From Spirulina subsalsa FACHB-351 (GTDB taxonomy: Bacteria > Cyanobacteriota > Cyanobacteriia > Cyanobacteriales > Spirulinaceae): a stretch of DNA of 49,963 bases. A program made the position numbers and the translations under genes. The notes under the pieces are model-generated. The model saw only the letters and a list, made by a program, of their open reading frames with translations. It searched no databases and was not told the DNA's origin. Location of the stretch: contig NZ_JAIHOM010000025.1 of assembly GCF_026130165.1 (NCBI RefSeq), positions 1-49,963 on the forward strand, written 5' to 3'. Each line of letters begins with the position of its first letter. Positions within the stretch are counted from its first letter, which is position 1. This document shows positions 116 through 5,482 of the stretch, one piece after another.

Positions 116-159
116 ATTGCAGATAATCACGACTAACGGCCTTTTTCAGCCACCCCTCC

Positions 160-1965
160 CTAAACCAAAAAGATACTTAAGGGGTCCGCCAGTTTCTGCT
201 GGGTGCCGGCTAAAACGAGGGAGAGATATTGCCTTAAGCGTCGCCCTTGTTGATAGTTAGGAATATAATTCCCCTGACCATCGGGACGGAATAAGGGGGC
301 GGCCATAACAGCCTGATATTCTAGGGTTTGTTGGGACTCGGGAGTTAACCAGAGGAGATGATGGGCTGTGGGGACTAGGCCGGAGGGTAATTTTCCTTCT
401 AAGATGGCTAAGACTCGCCACATACAAGCTTTCGGGTTGATGCCTCGTTGTTCTAGGGCTTGTAACATTCGTTCGAGGGTGATGGGTTTTTGGGGGAAGG
501 TGTGGAGTAATTCTGACAAGAGGAAAAAATCACTGTATTGGTGGCGTAAGCGGTCGAAGAGTTGGGGATACTGGGGCAGTTGGGCTAATCCGAGGGCGAC
601 TGGCCGGGTGTCGGGGGGGTGAAGACCTTGGATAAAGCGGGCTTGGGGGAATTTTTGCCTTAACCAAGGTTCTAAAAAAGGCCATAAGGGGGTGAAAAAA
701 TCTCCACTGTAGAGAATTTGGCTGATTTTTGTGCCGGGATGCTGCAATCCGTCCTCCTGATAGTCTCTATGGCTGAGTAGGAGGTTAATCTGTTGGTTGA
801 GTTGTTTGGTGAAGGGGGTCAATATTTGTTCAATTAAGTCTGCCCGTTGTACTCCCCAAGTTTGCTCTCCGAGGAAGGTGGAGAAGGATTCTTGTTTCTG
901 TAAAATCAACCACACTCGACGGGCCATTTCTAAAAGCGATCGCCCTTCGGAAAAAGACAACACCTGCAATAAGGCCTGATCTCGCTTTGGGTGATCTGGT
1001 GTTCCCCCTTGAGGAGCCTCAAACTGTAAATCGGCCAGAAACGCCTGTTCTGGTTGCCACTGGGGATAAATCAACTGGTAAAAAATATCCTCATATAACC
1101 CCTGTAGTCCATAATCCAAACTGGTGAGGGTAAAATCACGATAGGAGAGGTCGTTTAAATCGTCGGGAAGGTCTACTAAACCCAGTTCAAGGGTGGTTAT
1201 CCCTCCTTGGAGGATTAAGGTGCTAGAAGGGGCAAGGTCGGGGCTGTAGGGGCGGGGATCTTCTAAGCGTTCCTGATGGACTTCTTGCCGATCCTGACAG
1301 ACTTGTGACCAATGAGCCAATAAAACGGCGATCGCATCCTCCACAAAGATCACCTGATCCGGACGCTCCACCACCTTCGCCCCTAAAATCACCTCCCGCA
1401 CATTAAAGCGATAACTATCCCCCCAAGTCGCCGGACAGTTCACCACCACCGCCACCACATTGGACAACATCTCACCCAACACCTCCCCCGATAACCCCTT
1501 AGCCCCCACCCGATACAAATGTTTTACTCCCGCCGGAGTTAAGCTACTCAATAAACTCTGTAAAGCCCGTTGCACCCAATAAAGAGAAATACTTTGACCC
1601 AGATCCCCATAGACCTTAGGCTCCCATTGTCGTTGTTTGCGACTGTAATACGGCACCGCCACATTCAACAAAGGCTTAAACTGCTGAACTAACGTCCCCT
1701 CCCCCGGTTTCGCCACCTCAGCCGCCATCTCCCCCACCACCATACTCAACCGAGACTTACCCGTTGGCTTAACCTTGGGGCTAAAATAGGCCATCAACGG
1801 CAACACCGAAAGCGTCCGACTATCGCTAGAGCCATTGCGTGCCGACCAATAGAGATGATATTGTTCCCCGGTCCCCACTTTCTGCAACACAGCCGAAATG
1901 CCAAGGGTGTCAATCTCTAAACCGAGATAGCAACGATTTTCTGGAGCTTCTTCCGAGGAAAACAT
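160..1965 (-). CDS. Hsp70/actin-like ATPase-fold protein, function unknown
   Basis: 601 residues, ATG start. The layout follows the actin/Hsp70 fold. There is a phosphate-1-like segment near residues 12-27 (YLGLEIDTLGISAVL). Around 170-218 comes a VVVNCPATWGDSYRFN stretch followed by VIFVEDAIAVLLAHW, which resembles the Hsp70 segment that ends in E-P-x-A-A. A phosphate-2-like strand lies near 248-265 (LILQGGITTLELGLVDL). An adenosine-motif-like ILYSGDFFTPLWPFLEPWL lies in the last third. The glycine-rich loops are degenerate compared with DnaK, and no substrate-binding domain follows, so this is not a standard chaperone. It starts 58 bp after the acidic coiled-coil gene on the same strand and is probably co-transcribed with it. 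An assembly or scaffold role for the pair is inference only. Confidence 0.72.
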   Translation of the reverse strand: MFSSEEAPENRCYLGLEIDTLGISAVLQKVGTGEQYHLYWSARNGSSDSRTLSVLPLMAYFSPKVKPTGKSRLSMVVGEMAAEVAKPGEGTLVQQFKPLLNVAVPYYSRKQRQWEPKVYGDLGQSISLYWVQRALQSLLSSLTPAGVKHLYRVGAKGLSGEVLGEMLSNVVAVVVNCPATWGDSYRFNVREVILGAKVVERPDQVIFVEDAIAVLLAHWSQVCQDRQEVHQERLEDPRPYSPDLAPSSTLILQGGITTLELGLVDLPDDLNDLSYRDFTLTSLDYGLQGLYEDIFYQLIYPQWQPEQAFLADLQFEAPQGGTPDHPKRDQALLQVLSFSEGRSLLEMARRVWLILQKQESFSTFLGEQTWGVQRADLIEQILTPFTKQLNQQINLLLSHRDYQEDGLQHPGTKISQILYSGDFFTPLWPFLEPWLRQKFPQARFIQGLHPPDTRPVALGLAQLPQYPQLFDRLRHQYSDFFLLSELLHTFPQKPITLERMLQALEQRGINPKACMWRVLAILEGKLPSGLVPTAHHLLWLTPESQQTLEYQAVMAAPLFRPDGQGNYIPNYQQGRRLRQYLSLVLAGTQQKLADPLSIFLV

Positions 1966-2023
1966 GGACTCTACAGAGGGTTAGGAGTGATTTGACTTCT
2001 CGATTTTAATCAAGGGTTAACTC

Positions 2024-5000
2024 TCACTCTTTATTTTTAGGTTTGAACAGGGAGGGAGTTGTCACTTCACTCCAAGGATCCGTTGTAATTTCTGTGATGG
2101 AGTGAATAATCCGCACTTCATCGGAATCCCCCTCCGATTCTAGGTCAGCCGACTCCTCAAAATCCAGACTTTCCTCTGGACTGTCCCATAAATCGGCAAT
2201 GGGGGGCAACTCATCAAAAACCATTTCAGGGGGATCTAGGGGATCTAAGGGGTGAAAATCTCCCGCATCCACAAACGTCACCACCGGATCCGTTGCAACC
2301 CCATGAATGGGGAGTTCCTCCCAATCTTCCTCCGTGGGTAAATCCAACAAGACCGAACTAGGATCTTCAGGCCAACTCTCCGGATCAACCACATCCGGTT
2401 CTGAGTCATCCTGTGCCGATGGGTGAATCCCGTCTGAGGGGGAAACCCCGTCCGTTATCCCATCCAATACAAGGGGATGGGGCATCTCGTCCTCTTGAGG
2501 CTGTTCCAACCCCATTTCCGGTTCAGAATTCCCCTCCTCTGGTGCGCTAATTTCCCAGTCCTCAACGGTAGGTTCCACCGTCTCCTGTGGAGTGAAGGAT
2601 AAAAGAACATCTTCAGGGGGATTTTCCTGTTCTGGTGCGCTAATTTCCCAGTCCTCAACGGTAGATTCTACTATCTCCTCTCTCTCCTCCACGGGGGATT
2701 CTACTTCCTCCTCAGCAGGTGCAGCTAAAAGCACTTCCTCAGCATCACTTTCCCCGGAAATCTCCTGTCTTGGCTCAACTGGGGATTCTACTCCCTCCTC
2801 AGTCGGTGCAGCTAAAAGCACTTCCTCAGCATCACTTTCCCCGGAAATCTCCTGTCTTGGCTCAACTGGGGATTCTACTCCCTCCTCAGTCGGTGCAGTT
2901 AAAAGCACTTCCTCAGCATCACTTTCCCCGGAAATCTCCTGTCTTGGCTCAACTGGGGATTCTACTCCCTCCTCAGCAGGTGCAGTTAATCCCGTTTCCG
3001 GTCCAGGAATAACCTCCTCGGCAGGACGAACGCTAGACTCCTGTACAACCTCCGGTTCTCCCCATATATCACCATCTCCCCCATCATTCATGGATAACGG
3101 ACGAGTAAAGGCAGGATTAGAACTAGGGTGACTGCTTGTTGTATCATCAGAGTCCCACATATCCCGAGACACAAAAACCTCGTCGGGTTCTTCTTCCTCT
3201 TCTTCAATTTCCAGAACTTCCACCTCATCTTCTGCTTCCTGTAACAGCAGATCAGACAAGGACTGAATCACCACCACCCCGGATAAGTTTTCTGGTTGAG
3301 CGACTGCAACCACTTCCTCCTCGTCTAACACAATTTCCATTGATGGGGGGGGAGGAGTCACGGCTTCTGGTGTTTCTACGGTTTCCTTACCCCCCAGCTC
3401 GACATCTTGAACTCTCTCGGAGACAGGAACAGGCATTTCTGCCATGGTAGGTTCTACCGGAGTGGGTTCTACTTCCTCATCAGGAACAACAGGAGCAGGT
3501 TCTGTCCTAGCTTCTAACTCTTCTGTGGGTAAGGTAGTGGGTTCTACTTCCTCATCAGGAACAACAGGAGCAGGTTCTGTCCTAGCTTCTAACTCTTCTG
3601 TGGGTAAGGTAGTGGGTTCTACTTCCTCATCGGGAGCAACAGCAGGGGCAATTTTTGCCTCGGGTGTAGCCACTGCTGGAGACTGTTCAAAACTAACTAA
3701 ATCTTCGTTGAGATGTTGGAGGGTTTCCTCTCCTAACACTTCATCTAATACGGGATGACGCAGAACCGAGGTTTCCTCGTCTGGGAGGAGTAACTCCTCT
3801 TGCTCTGGATTATGAAACTCATCAAGGTCTTGTTCTACCTCTTCTCCCTCTTCGGGTGAGCGGACGACTAAATCCGACACCTGATCTAAGAGCATGGTTA
3901 AAGATGCCGTGGTGACAATCTCCTCCTCGTCCTCGTCATGGGTTTCTGCTAACTTGGCTTTCGCCGGAGATAATTCCGCCGGGGGAACGGTTTCTGGGGC
4001 GGGTAAAGCGGGAACGTCTTCAAATAGGAGGGTTTCTAGGCTAACATCTCTCCGCAAGGTCAACAGGGAGGAGTCTTTTAACCCGATTGCGGGATCGTCC
4101 AACTCCGCAAAGAGGGCGGTTTCTAGGGGTTGATCGGGGCTGATTCCTTCAAATAGTACGAGTTCGGGGGTGGGAGGTGGGGGTTCTTCTGTGGTGAGGA
4201 TGAGATCCGATTCTGAGGGGGGTGTCTCGGTGGTGAATAGATCGGAATCGCTGCCGAATAACTGTTCATCCCACGCTTCCCACATTTCGCTGGCATGGGG
4301 GGGTGCAGGGGTTTCGGGGGTGGGTTCTCTTGGTTCAATCTGGAGGACTTGATTGGCTTCTGTGGCACTTAAATCTAGATCCAGTATGGCGGCGAGGGTA
4401 TCGGGTACCCTGGCGGATTCGGAACGGTCTAATATGTCGAAATGATGACTTTGTAGGGGGATTTCTACCCCGGCGAAGGGGTAGAGGGCATTTTCGTTTG
4501 TATCCCGTGATCTGGGAAGGGAAAGCTCTGTTGTGGATGTTTCGGGGGCTTCTGGGAGAGCAGAGGCTGGGTGGTCTTTGGAGGAGGGGAGGGAGAGGGG
4601 CGTTCCGTTGGCGTAGGGGGCTGAAGGAAGGGCGGGGGCGAGTTGTTGAAGGTAGTCTTGGAAGAGGTTGACGCTTTGTTCCCCTAAGTCGTGGAGGTTG
4701 GCGATGTTTTCGCCGAGGGAGTAACGATAGGCTTGGAGATCCTGTTCTAGGGTTTGGAAGACGCTGCGCACGGTGGCATCCCAACCGAGGAGCAGTTGAT
4801 CAAATTGGCGCTGGAGTTCTCGTAATTGTTCGAGTCGTTCGAGTTGTTGGAGGGGGTTGGGGTTGAGATTGGAGGGCAGGGCGGCCTTTTGGGGGTTTTC
4901 CTGTAGGAGGGGCAGGAGTTGGTGGGTGAAACTTTCGAGCGATCGCGCCATTTGTTGCTGGAGTCCTTCACTACACCGGGCTAACAGGACTTGAACAAAA

Positions 5001-5482
5001 TCCCCGGTGATTTGTTGACGCTGACTTTCTAACTTGCGGATCTCGTGGAGTAGGGCCTCACGTTGTTGACGGAGGGTTTCTAACTCCATCTGTAAGGGTT
5101 CAATCCACTGATGGCGCTGTTGATTCATCTGTCTCATGACGGCCTGGGCGATCGCCTCGGCTGTCTCTTTCCCTCCGACTGTCTCGGTTGGAGCTAGATT
5201 GGGGCTGTTTCCTTCGGAACTCTGTGCGAACAACAGAAACTGACGGATTTTCGCTAAAACCCTCTGTTGTTCATGTAGTTTTTGTTGATGCACTTGTTGG
5301 GGGTTAACCTCTTGTGCCTTGGCGTTAACCCCAGTCAAAACCTGATCAATTTCTGTAATCAGTGCGTGAATATCTGTTGGTGAAGTCACAGTCAAACCCA
5401 GATCGTAAAAGTACGCAAAGCGGAAACGCCCTATCTTTTTATATTGACACTCTCCCGATACATTGGGAAATTTTTGGCTCAA
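2024..5482 (-). CDS. Large acidic coiled-coil protein with internal repeats
   Basis: 1152 residues from a TTG start; no nearby in-frame ATG exists, so the start is uncertain. Residues 1-60 form a small ordered-looking region containing Phe/Tyr-rich RFRFAYFYDLGL. About 60-280 is Gln/Glu/Leu-rich with heptad character (EPLQMELETLRQQREALLHEI) and is predicted coiled coil. From about 290 to the end it is Glu/Asp/Pro/Ser/Thr-rich, very acidic and probably disordered. This part contains a 29-residue unit (TEEGVESPVEPRQEISGESD and so on) repeated about 3.5 times and a 25-residue unit (PDEEVEPTTLPTEELEAR) repeated at least twice, both near-identical at DNA level. No catalytic motif was seen and I do not recognise the family. 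It is upstream of, and probably co-expressed with, the Hsp70-like gene, so the two may act together. Confidence 0.72.
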   Translation of the reverse strand: MSQKFPNVSGECQYKKIGRFRFAYFYDLGLTVTSPTDIHALITEIDQVLTGVNAKAQEVNPQQVHQQKLHEQQRVLAKIRQFLLFAQSSEGNSPNLAPTETVGGKETAEAIAQAVMRQMNQQRHQWIEPLQMELETLRQQREALLHEIRKLESQRQQITGDFVQVLLARCSEGLQQQMARSLESFTHQLLPLLQENPQKAALPSNLNPNPLQQLERLEQLRELQRQFDQLLLGWDATVRSVFQTLEQDLQAYRYSLGENIANLHDLGEQSVNLFQDYLQQLAPALPSAPYANGTPLSLPSSKDHPASALPEAPETSTTELSLPRSRDTNENALYPFAGVEIPLQSHHFDILDRSESARVPDTLAAILDLDLSATEANQVLQIEPREPTPETPAPPHASEMWEAWDEQLFGSDSDLFTTETPPSESDLILTTEEPPPPTPELVLFEGISPDQPLETALFAELDDPAIGLKDSSLLTLRRDVSLETLLFEDVPALPAPETVPPAELSPAKAKLAETHDEDEEEIVTTASLTMLLDQVSDLVVRSPEEGEEVEQDLDEFHNPEQEELLLPDEETSVLRHPVLDEVLGEETLQHLNEDLVSFEQSPAVATPEAKIAPAVAPDEEVEPTTLPTEELEARTEPAPVVPDEEVEPTTLPTEELEARTEPAPVVPDEEVEPTPVEPTMAEMPVPVSERVQDVELGGKETVETPEAVTPPPPSMEIVLDEEEVVAVAQPENLSGVVVIQSLSDLLLQEAEDEVEVLEIEEEEEEPDEVFVSRDMWDSDDTTSSHPSSNPAFTRPLSMNDGGDGDIWGEPEVVQESSVRPAEEVIPGPETGLTAPAEEGVESPVEPRQEISGESDAEEVLLTAPTEEGVESPVEPRQEISGESDAEEVLLAAPTEEGVESPVEPRQEISGESDAEEVLLAAPAEEEVESPVEEREEIVESTVEDWEISAPEQENPPEDVLLSFTPQETVEPTVEDWEISAPEEGNSEPEMGLEQPQEDEMPHPLVLDGITDGVSPSDGIHPSAQDDSEPDVVDPESWPEDPSSVLLDLPTEEDWEELPIHGVATDPVVTFVDAGDFHPLDPLDPPEMVFDELPPIADLWDSPEESLDFEESADLESEGDSDEVRIIHSITEITTDPWSEVTTPSLFKPKNKE
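2704..3000 (-). repeat. 87-bp in-frame tandem repeats
   Basis: The motif CTCCCTCCTC starts at 2791, 2878 and 2965, exactly 87 bp apart. A diverged copy lies to the left, near 2704. The array is inside the acidic protein gene and adds 29 residues per unit, so copy-number change would keep the frame. Confidence 0.85.
3466..3640 (-). repeat. 75-bp in-frame tandem repeats
   Basis: GTTCTACTTCCTCATC recurs at 3466, 3541 and 3616 (period 75). There are two full units and one partial unit, each encoding 25 residues of the acidic protein. Confidence 0.85.

Follow-up and report, generated by a model that had tools for sequence, protein, structure and literature searches.

What does a cyanobacterium do with an actin-fold protein encoded beside a very long acidic one? 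Two genes at the start of the stretch of DNA analysed here (the window: 49,963 nucleotides of Spirulina subsalsa FACHB-351, contig NZ_JAIHOM010000025.1) raise this question. The original prediction saw in them a degenerate actin-fold ATPase and a giant acidic coiled-coil partner of 1152 residues, suggesting an undescribed filament, scaffold or envelope system. Both lie on the minus strand, the gene of the acidic partner upstream and, 58 bases further on, a gene with an ATG start for an Hsp70/actin-fold protein of 601 amino acids (160..1965). The longest frame of the partner (2024-5482) does encode 1152 residues, yet its homologues start close to the residue that a conserved GTG (5387-5389) encodes. 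We therefore set the start there, which gives a protein of 1121 residues (2024..5389). Our computational analysis suggests that the pair belongs to one modular protein family with single-chain and split forms, although we rate this explanation, taken as a whole, slightly below an even chance. The fold is known and the architecture is undescribed: neither protein reaches a curated Pfam or NCBIfam cut-off, and our searches of the open-licence literature turned up nothing identifiable as this protein.

The first part of the answer comes from structure prediction. An AlphaFold2 model of the 601-residue protein, built with an alignment of 48 relatives, is confident (predicted local distance difference test, pLDDT, 89.7; predicted template modelling score, pTM, 0.92) and shows an actin fold of the type found in the Hsp70 nucleotide-binding domain. 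The top Foldseek match was the nucleotide-binding domain of DnaK (E-value 1.7e-12), and the 50 best matches, out of 770 at E <= 10, were all of the Hsp70 class. A structural aligner placed DnaK (Z 20.3, root-mean-square deviation 4.1, 365 residues aligned) and the Hsp110-type structure 6gfa (Z 19.6) nearly level with MreB (Z 19.1, deviation 3.3, 294 residues). The sequence itself is remote from known families. A single-sequence search of the PDB returned no relative, and a profile of 21 members found a DnaK chain as its best match at E 0.013. Pfam and NCBIfam gave no match up to E 1, PF00012 included; this Hsp70 family has seven matches in the window's own genome, the 601-residue protein not among them.

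The second part concerns the relationship between the two genes. A single-sequence scan of genome contigs found no relative and tblastn against plasmids no match; an alignment-based scan succeeded. With the window genome counted in both samples, the Hsp70/actin-fold gene (hereafter the ATPase gene) was detected in 36 of 59 relatives and, at E <= 0.001, in 89 of the 386 genomes that sampled the phylum. A profile search reaching 117 of the 386 genomes also weakly catches, at residues ~350-450, Hsp70-like paralogues of ~540 amino acids, and the genome counts given here are those of the 89-genome search. These paralogues occur in many cyanobacteria and resemble a separate protein of ~530 residues in the window genome (L004, contig C272).

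A scan of GTDB contigs yielded 333 encoding stretches; the top 80 of these were retained. Loci L038-L057 overlap in part with the genomes of L058-L137, and distinct counts refer to the 93 non-identical domain sequences among 101 loci. In 66 of these 93 the ATPase is fused to its acidic partner and in 22 the two are split and adjacent, as in the window; the conserved pairing that had been proposed is thus borne out in other genomes. Four of the five remaining loci lie at contig edges, and in the fifth (G035) both genes are kept though unlinked, on different contigs. One locus counted as fused (L098) has its N-terminal part in a separate upstream open reading frame (ORF) 113 bp away, probably through a frame break. 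That N-terminal part, the coiled-coil head of the acidic partner, was detected in all 94 of the 101 loci for which an upstream or fused N-terminus was obtainable, 12 of the 94 having been used to build the profile. Among 20 further loci picked by hand from the 117-genome search, several of them from other orders, 18 have the head (8 fused, 10 adjacent). Starred branches of the tree force at least five interchanges between fused and split forms; the split L050, for example, is sister to the fused L047 and L064. Across the 386 genomes, 79 have both the ATPase (E <= 0.001) and the head module in any protein (E <= 1e-6), 10 have the ATPase alone, 6 the module alone and 291 neither. Reduced versions also exist (L150 and L151, in genomes G303 and G140): a fused form of 586 residues in which the head is partial, and a headless ATPase remnant of 415 residues that still lies divergent to a CRP-family gene.

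The head (residues 1-254; 4628..5389, minus strand) is the only part of the partner for which a coiled coil is predicted (residues ~4-253). The partner is indeed acidic, but the description of a giant coiled-coil protein applies to no more than its first ~255 of 1121 residues. A model of residues 1-303 (pLDDT 76.5, pTM 0.46) consists of two helices of ~90 and 75 residues and a short N-terminal pair; the best Foldseek match to it had E 0.41, which shows little for a coiled coil. A search of the window genome with the head profile revealed two further proteins (E 2.7e-19, at profile positions 205-282, and E 8.0e-12). HmpF, considered for these second coiled-coil matches on account of its size, was set aside when they were identified as EamA transporters with an N-terminal head module: L164 (2704-4452, plus strand) and L165 (1611-3332, minus strand), on contigs C173 and C190, the latter protein with the tail of the module tandemly repeated. 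With the head profile, the EamA-borne copies (four, from two sister genomes) reach 70-95 bits, whereas among 1268 other ORFs and 94 reversed heads no score exceeds 12.5 bits (E 0.005). In L164 and L166 the match spans at least profile positions 90-259; in L165 and L167 it is broken into two segments. All seven module-bearing proteins scanned with Pfam from such second loci, five of them from other genomes, match EamA, and the five in which hydrophobic segments were counted have 9-11. In the one genome of the six with only the module that differs from the rest (G103), only an EamA-type copy was seen. A repeat-bearing linker is visible between head and membrane part in L168, L175 and L176. The same head is thus found with a membrane transporter as effector in the EamA (DMT) proteins and with an actin fold in the family described here; it is therefore a module in its own right, joined by a variable linker to either.

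Between the head and the ATPase comes a linker that is acidic and probably disordered (residues 255-1121; 2027..4627, minus strand). Asp and Glu make up 27.5% of residues 286-1121 and Lys and Arg 3.3%, for a net charge of -202, and pLDDT is near or below 50 from about residue 261 to residue 303, where the head model ends. Both in-frame repeats of the original prediction are real: an 87-bp tandem array of 3.6 copies (2673..2989) and a 75-bp array of 2.4 copies (3461..3642), both on the minus strand. The length variation expected from them is also observed, the sister species G001 having other units at the two corresponding places (69 bp x 8.7 and 45 bp x 4.0). The ATPases of the two species are 91% identical, and the ratios of nonsynonymous to synonymous substitution rates (dN/dS), 0.14 for the ATPase, 0.23 for the head and 0.28 and 0.22 for the linker outside the arrays, indicate that all three parts are under purifying selection.

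Short motifs recur in the linkers. For the pattern counts each linker was taken from residue 231 of its ORF onward, which brings in the last stretch of the head. A loose [DE]x6-9LFG pattern, matched in the window by EMWEAWDEQLFG (4253..4288, minus strand), occurs in 70 of 88 linkers (16 of 22 split, 54 of 66 fused), whereas shuffled linkers matched in 1.5 of 88 cases on average and never in more than 6. SP[QDE]..L is found in 55 of the 88 (8.6 when shuffled), EKKK in 19 (0.05) and a SLTDLL-like pattern in 11 (0.3). Two other motifs are confined to distinct linkers of the split type: a pattern like YPFAG, located at the start of the window's linker (4469..4483, minus strand), in 14 of 22, and the strict pattern of TDPWS, near the C-terminus of the partner (2069..2083, minus strand), in 5 of 22, both with 0 of 66 among the fused type.

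The actin fold has kept part of its active site. Among the 93 distinct sequences, position 17 of the phosphate-1 motif is Asp in 91 and Glu in two, including the window copy; position 209 of a connect-1-like motif is Glu in 90, position 97 is Lys in 88, and Gly421 of an adenosine-like motif is invariant. Position 253, set against the phosphate-2 Asp (D194 of DnaK), is Asn in 72, Asp in only three and Gln in the window. The prediction of a degenerate actin-fold ATPase is thus supported both by the model with its DnaK and MreB matches and by the phosphate-2 motif. The Hsp70-fold end is probably nucleotide-binding, as judged from its motifs, and, since this position is not Asp in 90 of 93 members, probably hydrolysis-poor. 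Beyond the fold, a very conserved C-terminal domain (residues ~471-601; 163..555, minus strand) contains the invariant residues Q476, Y477, F481 and G508. In the full-length model it is mainly helical with short strands, and the predicted order of helices and strands is compatible with a winged helix. Its profile (A5) gave one marginal match, to the MarR-family protein TcaR (E 0.0012), and we tentatively regard the domain as winged-helix-like. Pfam found no match for the C-terminus of the window protein and weak, scattered ones for those of other members.

How could such a protein work? We propose a modular tether, at a probability that we likewise place a little under one half, with an oligomerising or membrane-docking head, an acidic linker of variable length and an Hsp70-fold end. 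The coiled-coil head would oligomerise and, since the same module forms the N-terminus of EamA transporters, would probably pair with the EamA-borne copies and thereby place the protein at the membrane. The linker, with its recurring short hydrophobic motifs, would act as a flexible tether whose length drifts by repeat turnover. The actin fold, in most members still equipped with the phosphate-1, connect-1-like and adenosine-like motifs but almost always without the phosphate-2 Asp, would probably bind nucleotide and switch conformation while hydrolysing it inefficiently at best, and the conserved C-terminal domain would be offered to a partner. In the window lineage, where the break in the chain falls between linker and actin fold, the two products would have to find each other in trans, plausibly via the linker motifs. 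We see the protein as more of a scaffold or switch than a demonstrated filament, and none of the tests made here supports the filament or the envelope system of the original prediction. A more specific version, which we consider possible but clearly less probable, is that a single coiled-coil 'plug' on rapidly evolving repeat linkers has been fitted either to EamA or to a catalytically altered Hsp70/actin fold, so that heterotypic pairing of heads recruits the switch to the transporter and linker length tunes its reach.

Several observations weigh against the modular tether. The pair is not obligate: 10 of the 89 ATPase genomes have no detected head, and five of the six genomes with only the module keep a head-plus-linker gene, divergent to a CRP-family gene, with no detected ATPase. 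Co-occurrence is confounded by phylogeny, the scoring of head modules took up to five candidates per genome, and the tree was a quick one that came with long-branch warnings. The composition bias that HMMER reports for the EamA matches is large (22-41 bits), although the controls are clean; coiled coils can converge, and the pairing of the head with EamA is argued by analogy only. The linker patterns were picked after inspection of the data, and two stricter LFG patterns occur in 0 of 88 linkers. As for the nucleotide, the equivalence of position 253 and DnaK D194 comes from a non-significant stretch of a hidden Markov model alignment (score -3.2), and the window copy, more degenerate than most members (D17E, G19D, G422D), may on these substitutions bind no nucleotide.

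The neighbourhood offers further leads. At 74 of the 87 testable loci a CRP-family gene is found upstream in divergent orientation, no more than five genes away. The same neighbourhood includes a gene for a DUF2232 membrane protein at 70 and a CobT-like gene at 59 of the 87. The window genome is an exception, its CRP gene being on another contig. At 36 of 89 loci the next gene, on the same strand, encodes a sugar transferase. One or two representatives of each of these families served to name it. Where the head-plus-linker gene stands beside a CRP-family gene with no detected ATPase gene (L169-L173; genomes G223, G324, G053, G020 and G033), a sugar-transferase gene is also next on the same strand, either directly or after one small ORF (L171). 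The CRP gene itself is present in 80 of the 89 ATPase genomes and in 29 genomes without the ATPase. CRP sites between the divergent genes are not enriched, being found at 26 of 74 loci with up to two mismatches (23.5 after shuffling) and at 1 of 74 with up to one mismatch (2.2 after shuffling). The neighbourhood is therefore a lead and not proof of regulation, and we do not claim direct control by CRP.

Could the family instead be a true actin-like cytoskeleton, in which the actin-fold domain polymerises and the coiled-coil and linker half bundles or anchors the filaments? A filament is possible because MreB matches the model almost as well as DnaK does; the partner has a coiled-coil head, and filament-forming coiled-coil proteins of cyanobacteria are known (PMC7002697). 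We nevertheless think this unlikely, given that the best 50 of the 770 Foldseek matches are of the Hsp70 class, that the position aligned with phosphate-2 is so rarely Asp, that a highly charged linker is fused to most members and that five genomes have the head half with no detected actin fold. Still more doubtful is a co-chaperone that would act, much as Hsp110 does, as a chaperone or exchange-factor-like partner for other Hsp70s and use its linker to recruit clients. In its favour, the closest folds include Hsp70 and Hsp110, and in Nostoc a DnaK1/DnaJ3 system is reported to tie pilus motors to polysaccharide secretion (PMC9239167). However, besides the window protein's own lack of a PF00012 match, just 2 of 21 members touch that family at E <= 0.1 (best 0.067), and the fold is followed by the extra C-terminal domain, no substrate-binding domain being recognised by sequence in the 601-residue protein.

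The C-terminal domain and the CRP-family neighbour could also point to a cAMP/CRP-linked regulator, whose winged helix would bind DNA while the actin fold senses a small ligand. ROK repressors, in which an actin-fold domain senses a small ligand and a winged helix binds DNA, provide the model. The TcaR match is marginal and single, though, a comparison of the C-terminal profile with that of the neighbouring CRP-family protein gave nothing (hhalign probability 0.5%), CRP sites are not enriched between the genes, and a linker charge of about -200 would be odd in a DNA-binding protein. We consider this role slightly less likely again than that of a co-chaperone. Finally, the degenerate motifs of the window copy, the low complexity of the linker and the one genome in which the genes are unlinked could be read as chance neighbourhood of a decaying Hsp70 paralogue and an unrelated low-complexity sequence. 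The fusions contradict this reading, as do the adjacency, dN/dS values of 0.14-0.28 and the conserved head, and we give it hardly any credence.

Comparison with G001 also shows how far the DNA similarity extends. It covers most of the pair (122-5436); outside, it is limited upstream to pieces of 47-74 bases and downstream to a duplicated 3' end of the ATPase gene. Directly 3' of that gene, G001 carries a type I restriction-modification island (L038:248-10321) with genes for HsdM, a TumE toxin, HsdS, a Schlafen-type protein, HsdR and a YgjP-like protein. The island is bordered by a duplicate (145 bp, 99% identical) of the 3' end of the ATPase gene, as if inserted there. In the window, a 27-28 bp repeat lies beside the contig end (100-127); it is present at ~30 places in the genome, several of them ~100 bases from contig starts, and is probably the end of a mobile element that broke the assembly.

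Among known systems, the nucleotide-binding domain of Hsp70/DnaK and Hsp110 are the closest in overall fold, and most members share their phosphate-1 Asp and connect-1-like Glu. They differ in having a curated family, which the window protein does not match, and, in place of the distinct C-terminal domain seen here, a recognised substrate-binding domain, and the family stands apart in its rare phosphate-2 Asp and in its tethering to a coiled coil and an acidic linker. The likeness to MreB and other bacterial actins, at almost equal Z, is one of fold, taken from a predicted model, and we know of no counterpart there of the tether and C-terminal domain. PilM/FtsA-type adaptors are actin-fold proteins that dock on partner peptides; the family has only weak PilM_2 matches (6 of 21 members, best E 0.00039), and no pilus gene was named among the seven neighbour families that were scanned. 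The coiled-coil-rich cyanobacterial proteins HmpF, All4981 and ZicK/ZacK are likewise cyanobacterial and coiled-coil, but the excerpts of PMC7766704 and PMC7002697 report no actin-fold partner for them; HmpF, too, is reported there as absent from picocyanobacteria.

An Hsp70/actin-fold family present in 89 of 386 sampled cyanobacterial genomes thus has no name in Pfam or NCBIfam, and natural fusions fix its partner. From the sharing of its head with membrane transporters follows a concrete hypothesis on binding, and in two sister species the tether is seen rewritten through repeat turnover. If the 'plug' reading is true, the family would represent an undescribed class of tethered pseudo-Hsp70 switch in a modular membrane-scaffold system. 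It offers a clean case for the study of pseudo-enzyme Hsp70 folds and of disordered-linker evolution in bacteria.

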